This document shows positions 5,609 through 53,716 of a DNA stretch of 64,000 nucleotides, piece after piece. The stretch covers positions 1 to 64,000 of the forward strand of contig NZ_QBKT01000006.1 in the NCBI RefSeq assembly GCF_003054265.1, in the 5' to 3' direction. Source of the DNA: Kordia periserrulae. Lineage in GTDB: Bacteria > Bacteroidota > Bacteroidia > Flavobacteriales > Flavobacteriaceae. The notes beneath the pieces were generated by a model. That model ran no database searches. It was not told the DNA's origin and worked only from the letters and a program-made list of their open reading frames with translations. Both the position numbers and the translations under genes were made by a program. Position 1 is the first letter of the stretch, and each line of letters begins with the position of its first letter.

Positions 5609-5710
5609 TTTTCTAATTTGTTAATGTGTTGATTTGATAATTTGAAAATGTCTTTCAAACTAAATTTTTTGATTTTAAAAGGCGCATTTTTCAATCATTT
5701 CAAACCCGTT

Positions 5711-28101: not shown

Positions 28102-28463
28102 TTTTTTGTTCTTTGTTGTTTGTAATTCGTTGTTTGTGGATTTGTTAATTTGTGTATTCGTCTTAACTCATCACTTTTAACTTTTTTGGCTCTTGGCTCT
28201 TGGCTCTTGGCTCTTGGCTCTTGGCTCTTGGCTCTTGGCTCTTGGCTCTTGGCTCTTGGCTCTTAAAAGTTGTTTTTTTGTTGTTTGTTATTCGTTTTTT
28301 GTGGTTTCTTTTTTAAATATACTTTTACATTTTGAGTTTTGAGCTTCATAGTACTTCTCGATACAAAATTGCTTCATTTCGACAGGCTCAATGAGCCGCA
28401 AATTCACTCGAAGTGACGTTTGGGTTTCTCAATACTCAATTCTCATATCTCACTACTAAAAAT
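28102..28463. repeat. Long heptamer tract and repeat copy A, left of dut
   Basis: Non-coding. From 28102: TTCTTTG-type, TTGTTTG, TAATTCG words, then CTTAACT words, then eleven perfect TTGGCTC units (28186-28262), then TTGTTTG-TTATTCG-TTTTTTG. A 78-bp block at 28349-28426 is identical to 29101-29178 and contains GGCTCAATGAGCC. The tract ends with CTCAATA-CTCAATT-CTCATAT-CTCACTA (28428-28455). The word changes but the step stays 7. Nearly the whole order of blocks is repeated on the other side of dut. Confidence 0.85.
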
Positions 28464-28898
28464 CTATTTCGTTCCTGTGCTTCCAAATCCGCCTTCGCCT
28501 CTTGCTGTTGACGAGAGTTCTTTTACTTCTTGCCATTCTGCACGTTCATGTTTTGCGATGACTAGTTGCGCGATGCGTTCTCCATTTTCAATGGTAAATG
28601 CTTCTTTGGAGAGATTGACCAATATCACTCCGATTTCACCTCTGTAATCTGCATCAATAGTTCCTGGCGCGTTGAGTACCGTGATTCCTTTTTTGGCAGC
28701 CAAACCACTTCGTGGACGCACTTGCGCTTCGTAACCTATAGGCAATTCAATGAACAATCCTGTTTTGATGATGGCTCTGTCCATTGGTTCCAACGTGACA
28801 GATTCTGCAAGATTTGCTCGTAAGTCCATTCCGGCAGAAGCCAAGGTTTCGTAATGCGGTAATGCGTGTTGTGATTTGTTGATGATGTTTATGGTCAT
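28464..28898 (-). CDS. dut: dUTP diphosphatase
   Basis: 144 residues with the trimeric dUTPase motifs: AGMDLRA (motif 1), [12 protein letters not shown] (2), [17 protein letters not shown] (3), [10 protein letters not shown] (4) and [12 protein letters not shown] (5). Removes dUTP and supplies dUMP. It lies between the flippase and nucleotidyltransferase genes but is isolated from both by large related repeats, so it probably has its own transcript. Confidence 0.97.
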
Positions 28899-29205
28899 TT
28901 TTTTATTGGGTGTTTGGTGTTGGGTTTTAGGTGTTCGGTTTTTTGTTTTTTGTGTATTCGTCTTAACTCTTAACTCATCACTTTTTAACTTTTTTGGCTC
29001 TTGGCTCTTGGCTCTTAAAAATTGTTTTTTTGTTGTTTGTTATTCGTTTTTTGTGGTTTCTTATTGAAATATATTTTTAGATTTTACATTTTGAGTTTCA
29101 TAGTACTTCTCGATACAAAATTGCTTCATTTCGACAGGCTCAATGAGCCGCAAATTCACTCGAAGTGACGTTTGGGTTCATCTCTCACTACTAAAATCTT
29201 CCAAG
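28899..29205. repeat. Heptamer tract and repeat copy B, right of dut
   Basis: Same order of blocks as at 28102-28463: CTTAACT words, three TTGGCTC units (28994-29014) instead of eleven, TTGTTTG-TTATTCG-TTTTTTG-TGGTTTC, then the identical 78-bp block at 29101-29178. The region before the block differs from copy A by small indels. Non-coding. Confidence 0.85.
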
Positions 29206-31463: not shown

Positions 31464-31560
31464 TTTGTTGTTTGTTTTTCGTTATTTGTCGATTTGTTTT
31501 TTGCTATTCGCTCATAGTTCTTGAATCTTGAATCCTGACTCTTGACTCTCAAATCATCTC
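31464..31560. repeat. Heptamer tract upstream of the lipoprotein gene
   Basis: TTGTTTG-TTTTTCG-TTATTTG, then after one 8-base step TTTTTTG-CTATTCG-CTCATAG, then TTGAATC-TTGAATC-CTGACTC-TTGACTC-TCAAATC (31521-31555). Non-coding. Confidence 0.75.
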
Positions 31561-31612
31561 AAGCAAAATTATTTTTCATGACAATTCCAAAGTACTAAAA
31601 AGTTCACTGAAT

Positions 31613-32164
31613 TTAAGCTTCTTGCAAACTTTTTAAGGTTTTTAATTCTTGTAATACTTGCTTTCGGATGAAATAAAATAAAACTACAAATGAAACCGCA
31701 TACGAGATGACGATGTAATAGAAAAATCCTCTGGAAATATATTGATAAAAGTAATACATCATGATTCCGACACCAATATTGTACACAATTAACAAGATTG
31801 GAATGGTTGTAAAGGCTAATTTTTTGCGGTTTTCATAGTAAGATATGAGCTGCGCTTTGAAGTCTTCTAACGAAAGTAGTACATTGATTTTTCGCAGCGT
31901 TTGACGACTTTTAACTTCAATCCAAACACGAATGATAATTACGCCAATAAGCAACGACATTCCTAAAAGCGTTCCGCTAAATTTGTAGGCGGAAATATAA
32001 AAGAAAAAGGCGATTAAGACGATTCCTGTAATGCCAAGAATGAATTGTGTGATTCGTTGTTCTTTACGGATTTTTTGTAGTTTTTGTTGTGTTGGCGTAA
32101 AGTCGGGAATGTTTGTTTGTTCCGATTGTTGTTGCCAGGTGTTTTGTATGTCTTTAAATTCCAT
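31613..32164 (-). CDS. Membrane protein next to ECF sigma factor
   Basis: 183 residues: about 40 soluble N-terminal residues (MEFKDIQNTWQQQSEQTNIPDFTPTQQKLQKIRKEQR), then four hydrophobic helices in two pairs (about 40-80 and 115-170) with a charged loop between them. Overlaps the sigma-factor gene by 11 bp. By position and topology it may be a membrane partner or anti-sigma factor, but it has no recognised anti-sigma domain. Confidence 0.75.
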   Translation of the reverse strand: MEFKDIQNTWQQQSEQTNIPDFTPTQQKLQKIRKEQRITQFILGITGIVLIAFFFYISAYKFSGTLLGMSLLIGVIIIRVWIEVKSRQTLRKINVLLSLEDFKAQLISYYENRKKLAFTTIPILLIVYNIGVGIMMYYFYQYISRGFFYYIVISYAVSFVVLFYFIRKQVLQELKTLKSLQEA

Positions 32165-32642
32165 GAGTGACGCATTTTGTGAGTTTTTCTTTGATTCTGT
32201 GTACCATCACGCGAACGTTTTGGTGTGAATGTCCTGTGATGTCTGCAATTTCTTTTTGTGCCAAACCTTCCAGCACCAATAAAATAACGATTCGTTCGGT
32301 TTCTTTTAGCTCTTGGATGCACGCATACATTTGTTGTAAGCGCGTTTGGTGTGCTTTTTCAACTTCTACTACGTTTGTATCATCTTCCCGTATTTCGGGT
32401 AAACTGTAACTTCCTTTTTTATTTTTTCGAATGAATAGTAAGCATGTATTTACCGTAATTCTATAAATCCACGTTCCAATACTCGATTTGTTTTTGAATT
32501 GATCCAAATGCTCCCAAACTTTCACGAAGGTGTCTTGTGCTAAGTCTTTGGCAAGTGCCTCGTCGCCATTGACGTATCCGAGACACAGCCTGTAGACTTT
32601 TTCGTAATGATTTTGGTATATGTTGTTGAATTGGGTTTTCAA
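32154..32642 (-). CDS. ECF RNA polymerase sigma factor
   Basis: 162 residues from TTG 32642. The frame stays open to another TTG at 32699, but those 19 codons are simply the heptamer repeat read through (KQIHKSTKNKEQKTKN). Regions 2 (YQNHYEKVYRLCLGYVNGDEALAKDLAQDTFVKVWEHLDQF) and 4 (KETERIVILLVLEGLAQKEIADITGHSHQNVRVMVHRIKEKL) are intact. No in-frame ATG exists near the start. Coupled to the downstream membrane protein. Confidence 0.88.
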   Translation of the reverse strand: MKTQFNNIYQNHYEKVYRLCLGYVNGDEALAKDLAQDTFVKVWEHLDQFKNKSSIGTWIYRITVNTCLLFIRKNKKGSYSLPEIREDDTNVVEVEKAHQTRLQQMYACIQELKETERIVILLVLEGLAQKEIADITGHSHQNVRVMVHRIKEKLTKCVTHGI

Positions 32643-32706
32643 GTTCTTTGTTTTTTGTTCTTTGTTTTTCGTCGATTTGTGTATTTGTTTAACTGACAAC
32701 TGACAA
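32641..32706. repeat. Heptamer tract at the sigma-factor start
   Basis: TTCTTTG-TTTTTTG-TTCTTTG-TTTTTCG (32644-32671), two 8-base steps, then AACTGAC-AACTGAC. It fills the space between the hydrolase stop and the sigma-factor start. Confidence 0.75.
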
Positions 32707-33549: not shown

Positions 33550-33852
33550 ACTGTTTGTTTTTTTGATTTTCCCTTTAGATACCGTTTTTTGAAAATGTTA
33601 CAGGTTGATGTACGATTTTTTGATTGACGATTGTAGATTTGGATCTTGGATCTTGGGTCTTGGGTTTTTGGTGTTGGGTTTTTGGTTATTTTTGGATTTG
33701 TCTTAACTCTTAACTCATCACTTTTAACTTTTTTGGCTCTTGGCTCTTGGCTCTTGGCTCTTGGCTCTTGGCTCTTAAAAAGTAATTTTTTTACTGTACG
33801 TTTCCTTAGTATTCCTTGCAACTTCTCAATCCTCAATACTAACATCTCAAAA
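33550..33852. repeat. Heptamer tract upstream of the hydrolase gene
   Basis: Non-coding. TTGGATC-TTGGATC-TTGGGTC-TTGGGTT (33639-33666), more TTGGGTT words, CTTAACT words, then six TTGGCTC units (33733-33774). Third locus for the TTGGCTC word, with yet another copy number, and ending in CTCAATC-CTCAATA steps. Confidence 0.8.
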
Positions 33853-37130: not shown

Positions 37131-37178
37131 TTATTTCGTTATCAGTTTTAGAATTTAGAGCTTGCGTTTGAAACAAAC

Positions 37179-37207
37179 TCTAAACTCATAACTTCTTAAC
37201 TTCTAAC
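37179..37207. repeat. Short heptamer tract between atpA and the inserted gene
   Basis: TCTAAAC-TCATAAC, one extra T, TCTTAAC-TTCTAAC. Lies right behind the atpA stop on the minus strand. Confidence 0.5.
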
Positions 37208-37211
37208 TAAA

Positions 37212-38789: not shown

Positions 38790-38803
38790 CTTTATTTGAA
38801 ATT

Positions 38804-38831
38804 TAGATGTTAGCTATTAGATATTAGATAT
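38804..38831. repeat. Heptamer tract between atpH and atpA
   Basis: TAGATGT-TAGCTAT-TAGATAT-TAGATAT, four exact 7-base steps within a 63-bp gap of the operon. Confidence 0.65.
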
Positions 38832-38852
38832 CTGTCCTAACTTTTAGTTTTA

Positions 38853-52211: not shown

Positions 52212-52360
52212 GGTTTTTATGTGAATTAGTAGTTTTCTTAGTTAGTGTGTATTTTTCTTTTTTGTTACAGATTGTTGTTGTTTGTTTTTTTGTTATTCGT
52301 TATTCGTTATTCGTTATTCGTGTTTTGTGTTTTGTTGATTTGTCGATTTGTTTTTTAAAT
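52212..52360. repeat. Heptamer tract upstream of the ABC permease
   Basis: Four exact GTTATTC units (52292-52319), then TGTTTTG-TGTTTTG and TTGATTT/TCGATTT words with occasional 8-base steps. Non-coding. The remaining bases to the PaaE start (52361-52537) show no gene. Confidence 0.75.
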
Positions 52361-53578: not shown

Positions 53579-53670
53579 TTTTTTTTGGTGTTGGGTATTG
53601 GGTGTTGGGTTTTTGTTGTTTGTTATTCGTTTATTTGTTTTACTGTCAACTGAAAACTGAGATTGAAAAC
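53579..53670. repeat. Heptamer tract between convergent genes
   Basis: TTGGGTA-TTGGGTG-TTGGGTT (53591-53611), then TTGTTTG-TTATTCG (53616-53629) and CAACTGA/AAACTGA words. This tract lies downstream of genes on both sides, so these tracts are not only 5' leaders. Confidence 0.7.
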
Positions 53671-53716
53671 AGATTTCTCAATAAGTAACTCAAAATGATG
53701 TTTGATATTCCATGGA

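Follow-up and report, generated by a model that had tools for sequence, protein, structure and literature searches.

The intergenic gaps of Kordia periserrulae raise the question of why tandem units of seven bases should recur there in changing words while the step itself stays at seven. We examined it in a stretch of 64,000 nucleotides from this species (hereafter the window), in further parts of its genome and in related genomes. Short heptameric tandem repeats (STRR) are carried by cyanobacteria. Across the 41 gaps of the window (8,836 bp), the self-match was 0.337 at lag 7 against 0.309 at lags 6 and 8; the coding DNA of the window had a lag-7 self-match of 0.263 and no peak there. The individual tracts are collected in Table 1.

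Table 1. Seven-base tracts of the window, with positions and strand
Position	Strand	Feature	Score or remark
28102..28314	-	7-base tract 5' of the NTP_transferase gene (Pfam); (GAGCCAA)x11 and drifted words	lag-7 score 84
28186..28264	+	perfect array (TTGGCTC)11.3	tandem repeat finder
28428..28452	-	short drifted tract TGAGATA TGAGAAT TGAGTAT	score 12
28906..29059	-	7-base tract 5' of the dUTPase gene; GAGCCAA x3, GAGTTAA, ACCCAA-type words	lag-7 score 45
31464..31549	-	drifted tract (AGAGTCA, AGATTCA, AGAACTA, ACAAACA)	score 27
32641..32706	-	weak tract, 5' end of a mechanically called ORF (32154-32699)	p 0.025
33622..33776	-	tract with (GAGCCAA)6 and ACCCAA-type words, 155 bp	score 70
38790..38852	-	gap with TATCTAA-type tract, ATP synthase delta (OSCP)/alpha genes (Pfam)	lineage-specific
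52275..52335	-	(ACGAATA)4.3 and ACAAAAC words, divergent gap	score 38
53584..53660	-	ACCCAAC/AACAAAC/CAGTTTT tract, convergent gap	score 24

The K. periserrulae sample comprised 644 kb, made of the window, 20 evenly placed 20-kb stretches and the nine stretches that follow the window, and covered 342 gaps with 69,353 bp of intergenic and 573,773 bp of coding DNA, ORFs being called mechanically. Its intergenic part contained 24 exact runs (at least 12 consecutive matches) with period 7 and none with periods 4-6 or 8-13, so that heptamers outnumber every other unit size from 4 to 13; the window array 33733-33776 was excluded from this total because it sits inside a mechanically called ORF. With three such runs in all the coding DNA, the period is mostly intergenic. 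Tandem seven-base units longer than chance gives, the mark of bacterial heptanucleotide repeats, are thus present here, and the heptamer pattern of the K. periserrulae gaps is confirmed as real. The 20 evenly placed stretches (218 gaps) yielded 21 runs of this length at lag 7, while lags 4-6 and 8-13 gave none; the exact runs were confined to 8 of these 20 stretches. On the contig of the window, the nine stretches beyond it had no exact run and four tolerant tracts, which indicates that heptamer tracts are patchy across the genome. Tolerant tracts at lag 7 numbered 40 in the whole sample, totalled 3,018 bp and occupied 30 of the 342 gaps.

The excess of lag 7 over other lags, expected by a sequence-only reading of the window, was therefore borne out. 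The same reading held that many words share one period, so that a single founder word would be insufficient, and this stands as well, the 24 runs representing 18 words. Its "strict" period was right as to the dominance of 7 and slightly too strong as a description: when the run length was loosened to 10, four lag-8 runs appeared in the 20 evenly placed stretches, and an 8-base family of tracts exists. Of the 12 heptamer places that it had listed, each scored at lag 7 against 400 order-2 Markov resamples, nine reached p<0.05, namely 18825 (0.037), 28102, 28899, 31464, 32641, 33550, 38795, 52212 and 53579, and three failed: 23315 (p 0.83, best lag 13), 36771 (0.45) and 37179, tested as 37160-37211 (0.07). 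Places listed as single points were given chosen ends, 33-52 bp in length. The top scores belonged to the gaps flanking the dUTPase gene and to gap 33550-33852, with p 0.0025 for both 28102-28463 and 33550-33852; place 32641-32706 lies mostly inside a mechanically called ORF that starts with TTG.

The 8-base family consists of drifted intergenic tracts (AATTTGAA, AATGTGTC, AATGTACC) and is represented at L036:6126, L036:6419, L041:3880, L042:1001, L047:1532 and window position 5609. Tolerant tracts of this step numbered 25 (1,029 bp), and for 18 of the 25 no 7-base tract lay within 60 bp.

As to the words themselves, (TTGGCTC)x3 gave 41 overlapping matches at 12 sites of the K. periserrulae genome and none for the reversed control. 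It was found in 6 of the 11 genomes of the genus and in 2 of the 296 genomes of a phylum sample, K. periserrulae being counted in both. A TAACTGA array of eight units occurred once in a 400-kb K. periserrulae sample (L054), and the tracts of the window use other words. Near position 1344 of L210, a higher-order array alternates GAGCCAA and GAATCAA in a 14-base unit beside a GATTNNN-type 7-base series.

Pairs of arrays were compared in K. periserrulae, G006 and G010 (the latter being the nearest congener) and, separately, in 80 of 111 TAACTGA-bearing stretches, 64 of them cyanobacterial, with TAACTGA unmasked. In the former set, a single base separated the words in 31% of the 16 pairs of arrays less than 15 bp apart and in 9% of same-orientation pairs between gaps; in the latter, arrays less than 15 bp apart differed by one base in 61% of 49 pairs versus 6% between gaps. 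Different words of one gap had a mean distance of 2.95 of 7 (56 pairs) and same-orientation words of different gaps one of 2.76. Near arrays are thus more alike than others, an effect that fades over whole gaps, where words are on average no closer than same-orientation words elsewhere; adjoining blocks drift apart, and the genome draws on many words with a common A-rich composition. The single-base differences between adjacent units were scattered rather than contiguous (57 transitions and 52 transversions, n=109), and this lean towards transitions (57/109) is what point mutation would give. Compared with permuted words, the words had slightly lower self-complementarity and CG content. Column concentration within tracts was 974 versus 753 at random, a difference that shared descent of the units can produce. 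A unit rule of four fixed plus three free bases, suspected by eye, was rejected: for adjacent mismatches, two-mismatch pairs stood at 0.27 versus 0.33 expected, and three-mismatch pairs at 1.16 versus 1.00.

The tracts are unevenly distributed among gap types. Over 432 gaps of K. periserrulae, G006 and G010, tracts made up 1.3% of the base pairs of divergent gaps, 4.7% of codirectional and 6.1% of convergent ones (permutation p 0.024), and a tract was present in 5 of 73 divergent, 27 of 292 codirectional and 12 of 67 convergent gaps. A strict orientation of the tracts to genes was discarded as inconsistent (12 versus 8 in the K. periserrulae sample).

Comparison with 10 congeners indicates that the intergenic heptamer tracts change fast between relatives; tract gain, absence and word change were all seen in orthologous gaps, as the sequence-only reading had anticipated. 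Among the 10 congeners, the length of the gap 5' of the NTP-transferase gene varies between 44 and 1707 bp, and the best lag of this gap is 7 in 9 of 11 species (that of the window counted); in G001 (L171, contig G001:C17) this tract-bearing gap holds a tandem duplication of about 145 bp, as estimated by eye. For the gap before the dUTPase gene, the best lag is 7 in 7 of 11 species, with GAGCCAA x3 in the window versus about 11 units in G010. The gap at 38790-38852 is 63 bp long in K. periserrulae and 12 bp in 10 of the 10 congeners compared, so that its 51-bp tract is a gain in the K. periserrulae lineage at a site seen empty in its relatives. This tract has no long match elsewhere in the K. 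periserrulae genome; 26 bp at G000:C7:192858 resemble it with 96% identity, and the gain may represent a copied tract.

The convergent gap 53579-53716 could be read in 10 of 11 species, and the words that occupy one and the same position in it differ: G005 has (AACTCAC)n, G003 (ATTGAAC)n and G009 AAGACCC, the window and G010 have ACCCAAC types, and G004, G006, G007 and G008 have no tract there. The divergent gap at 52275-52335 has a 14-base form in G010, other words in G003 and no tract in G002, G004, G005 and G007, and is 27 bp long in G009. In gap 31464-31612, AGAACCA is repeated about 9-10 times in G010, while the window has a drifted series that includes one AGAACTA; judging from these words, it seems that each species amplified a unit of its own from a single drifted tract. 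The G010 contig compared had matches for 23 of the 52 window genes; gap lengths from that comparison were left aside, as two apparent zero-length gaps came from wrong partner matches, one of them at 31% identity. Density also differs greatly between close species, with 23 lag-7 runs of at least 10 in 42 kb of intergenic DNA in K. periserrulae versus 2 in 32 kb in G010 and 1 or 2 in each of G002, G003, G008 and G009. G006 had 18 such runs in 20 kb, 13 of which lie in L292, a stretch chosen for the dUTPase region.

The size of the step can be read from insertions and deletions between K. periserrulae and G010, aligned over 170,685 bp of which 16,853 bp are intergenic. At 85% likeness, nine tandem-type intergenic indels were 4 bases or longer, with lengths of 7 (four), 14 (two), 42, 6 and 8, seven of the nine being 7, 14 or 42 long; at 100% likeness there were four, of 7 (two), 14 and 6. 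Most of the nine fall within tracts already described, and a distance of 9 bp separates two of them. Unit number thus varies between relatives, as the GAGCCAA counts and these tandem indels (small numbers) both attest. Intergenic indels of every kind in the same comparison had no peak at 7, lengths 4 to 10 being represented 12, 7, 5, 7, 4, 4 and 3 times. With the arrays masked, exact two-copy 7-base duplications exceeded expectation in three array-bearing sets (15/10.8, 19/11.5 and 30/18.8 observed/expected), counts in which the genus set includes one 8-kb stretch twice and to which imperfect masking may add; those of 5 and 6 bases were below expectation in the same sets. No excess of two-copy 7-base duplications was found in the set from other genera and families (2/6.2), and the cyanobacterial set had a larger excess for 9 bases (8/1.5). 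A preferred 7-base step is supported.

Outside the genus, five genomes of other genera and families had 0 to 3 lag-7 runs of at least 8 versus 0.2 to 1.0 in resamples. Three genomes from a distant family of the phylum, chosen for their AACRAAY arrays, had 1, 1 and 4 lag-7 runs and none at other lags, the single runs (G168 and G219) being at chance level, as a G168 resample also gave 1. For the AACRAAY search, the reversed-pattern control lacks independence, since reversing AACAAAC only rotates it. In the 64 cyanobacterial loci, chosen for TAACTGA arrays (masked in the run count) from the 80 listed of 111 stretches, lag 7 accounted for 135 runs of 12 or more, lag 8 for 18, lag 9 for 11 and lag 6 for none. 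These loci, among the matches listed, resemble cyanobacterial STRR in the dominance of period 7, and they differ from K. periserrulae in their words: a shared vocabulary was rejected, with 3 common words versus 2.1 expected (p 0.34). Also among the matches listed, TAACTGA x4 was present in L072, L099, L100, L101, L103, L112 and L120, all seven titled as MAGs (Verrucomicrobia, Pyrinomonadaceae, Chloroflexi, Balneolaceae, Anaerolineaceae, Dehalococcoidia and Gracilibacter), a range wider than the groups given in the abstract of PMC4679880.

Several repeat systems of this kind have been described. According to PMC4692102 and PMC4679880, a 2007 survey found heptamers to be over-represented, or the commonest, among the long simple repeats of many bacterial genomes, and the mechanism suggested was slippage across the 7 bases contacted by the polymerase. 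The K. periserrulae tracts agree with the repeats of that survey, as related there (unit 7 most abundant in most genomes, phylogenetically scattered), and differ in that they often pass through several drifting words per gap and that their turnover among congeners could be followed. PMC4679880 describes TAACTGA repeats of Beggiatoaceae, Cyanobacteria and Bacteroidetes, with heptamer repeats other than TAACTGA in gaps of Gramella, Aequorivita and Elizabethkingia, so that the lack of a described flavobacterial counterpart, of which the sequence-only reading knew none, is not supported; tandem TAACTGA is present once here, as one of the 18 words. The GGGNATC / GGGGA(C/T)T repeats of Xanthomonas and Nostoc are, according to PMC4692102, likewise heptameric, mainly non-coding, rare in divergent gaps (which GGGAATC repeats avoid) and variable between close species; they are of one G-rich word type, unlike the many words of K. 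periserrulae, mostly A/C-rich on one strand. The GGGNATC unit, which marks the GGGNATC quadruplex repeats, does not occur among the 18 words of the K. periserrulae sample. Heptamer-derived bacterial satellites are also mentioned in PMC6749651. The open-licence PubMed Central literature yielded no paper on multi-word tracts in the genus, which is no proof of absence. Since heptamer dominance and the slippage hypothesis are already in print, Bacteroidetes included, we regard the K. periserrulae tracts as a well-documented case of a known kind.

We consider that the tracts are probably heptameric long simple-sequence repeats arising by 7-base-biased tandem duplication or slippage from many founders, the repeats then drifting, expanding again and being copied from gap to gap. 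The arrays would be made by replication slippage and tandem duplication with a strong bias towards a 7-base step, and many founder words would arise independently of one another. Point mutations would make the units drift, later slippage would re-amplify one drifted unit, recombination would copy some tracts between gaps, and selection would clear tracts from genes and thin them in divergent promoter gaps. The period-7 excess, the 7-base tandem indels, the relatedness of neighbouring words, their turnover and the gain at an empty site are direct observations; we infer that the units are copied through replication slippage and that their 7-base length is set by a polymerase or a repair enzyme. 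A special process copying in 7-base steps beyond slippage, on which the sequence-only reading had speculated, is not supported as needed. To our knowledge, no generic model of slippage accounts for so sharp a preference of 7 over 6 and 8. The density contrast between close species counts against the preferred explanation, as a constant enzyme property does not predict it, and so do the 8-base drifted family, the absence of a peak at 7 among indels of all kinds, the larger 9-base excess of two-copy duplications in the cyanobacterial set, the possible copied origin of the 51-bp gain and the mean distance of words within one gap, which is no smaller than that between gaps.

The tracts might also be fragments of composite elements that are dispersed by copying from gap to gap, the period then deriving from one old repeat family and not from repeated births. 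Gaps 28102-28463 and 28899-29205 indeed have a common order and sequence, including an imperfect palindrome that is identical at 28351-28416 and 29103-29168 and recurs in gaps across the genus; parts of these gaps recur elsewhere in the genome and the genus, and by eye the first gap of the window resembles the second gap of G010 on one side of the array. The shared palindrome, the tract order and this resemblance suggest exchange between gaps, and words taken in the same orientation from different gaps resemble each other as closely as those within a gap. A T-run plus AA precedes 6 of 12 printed K. periserrulae GAGCCAA tracts and is missing at the other 6, while TTTT lies at most 12 bases upstream in 30% of 82 arrays versus 11% of control positions. 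A constant left-end motif, AARGTAYTTT, was tried and found weak: it was followed by a 7-base tract in 2 of 4 K. periserrulae and 5 of 20 genus cases, with one place counted twice. Against dispersed elements also stand the ATP synthase gap gain, with no long match elsewhere in the genome, and the TAACTGA-bearing cyanobacterial loci among the matches listed, in which other words keep to this period and T-runs are not in excess. We think that dispersed copying covers part of the pattern and not the period in the words of other phyla, and we hold this reading to be unlikely. Somewhat less likely still, in our view, is a lineage-borne enzymatic ruler that would duplicate 7-base steps from the first copy on, independently of sequence, would be switched between close species, and would drive convergent, fast-changing satellites in Bacteroidota, Cyanobacteria and others.

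Selection of the heptamers as binding sites or leaders, serving for example a cold-shock-like protein or translation initiation, appears improbable. Such a role is proposed for TAACTGA repeats in PMC4679880, some tracts end at a start codon, and in codirectional gaps of the congeners the A-rich strand is the coding strand for 36 versus 5 tracts, orthologous gaps being counted repeatedly; the corresponding count is only 12 versus 8 in the K. periserrulae sample, words and tract presence change at the same genes between close species, and tracts are present in convergent gaps too. We give hardly any credence to a templated, telomerase-like reverse transcriptase adding 7-base units. The period is sharp and the K. 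periserrulae genome has one reverse-transcriptase match (an RVT_1 domain at G000:C4:189481-190044, in an open frame of 347 aa), but the words are many, no contiguous fixed/free rule holds within units, and G002, G004 and G006 carry (TTGGCTC)3 arrays with no RVT_1 match; the enzyme was rejected as driver. A REP-type Y1 transposase was also rejected as driver, no match being found in the K. periserrulae genome.

Why bacterial slippage favours exactly seven bases has been discussed since at least 2007, and we found no answer in the searched literature. The results call for caution in taking each heptamer word, such as TAACTGA or GAGCCAA, for a separate regulatory signal or a sign of horizontal transfer. 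With dense and sparse close species, an empty site at the ATP synthase gap and 7-base tandem indels between two genomes, the genus offers a test system for this question.
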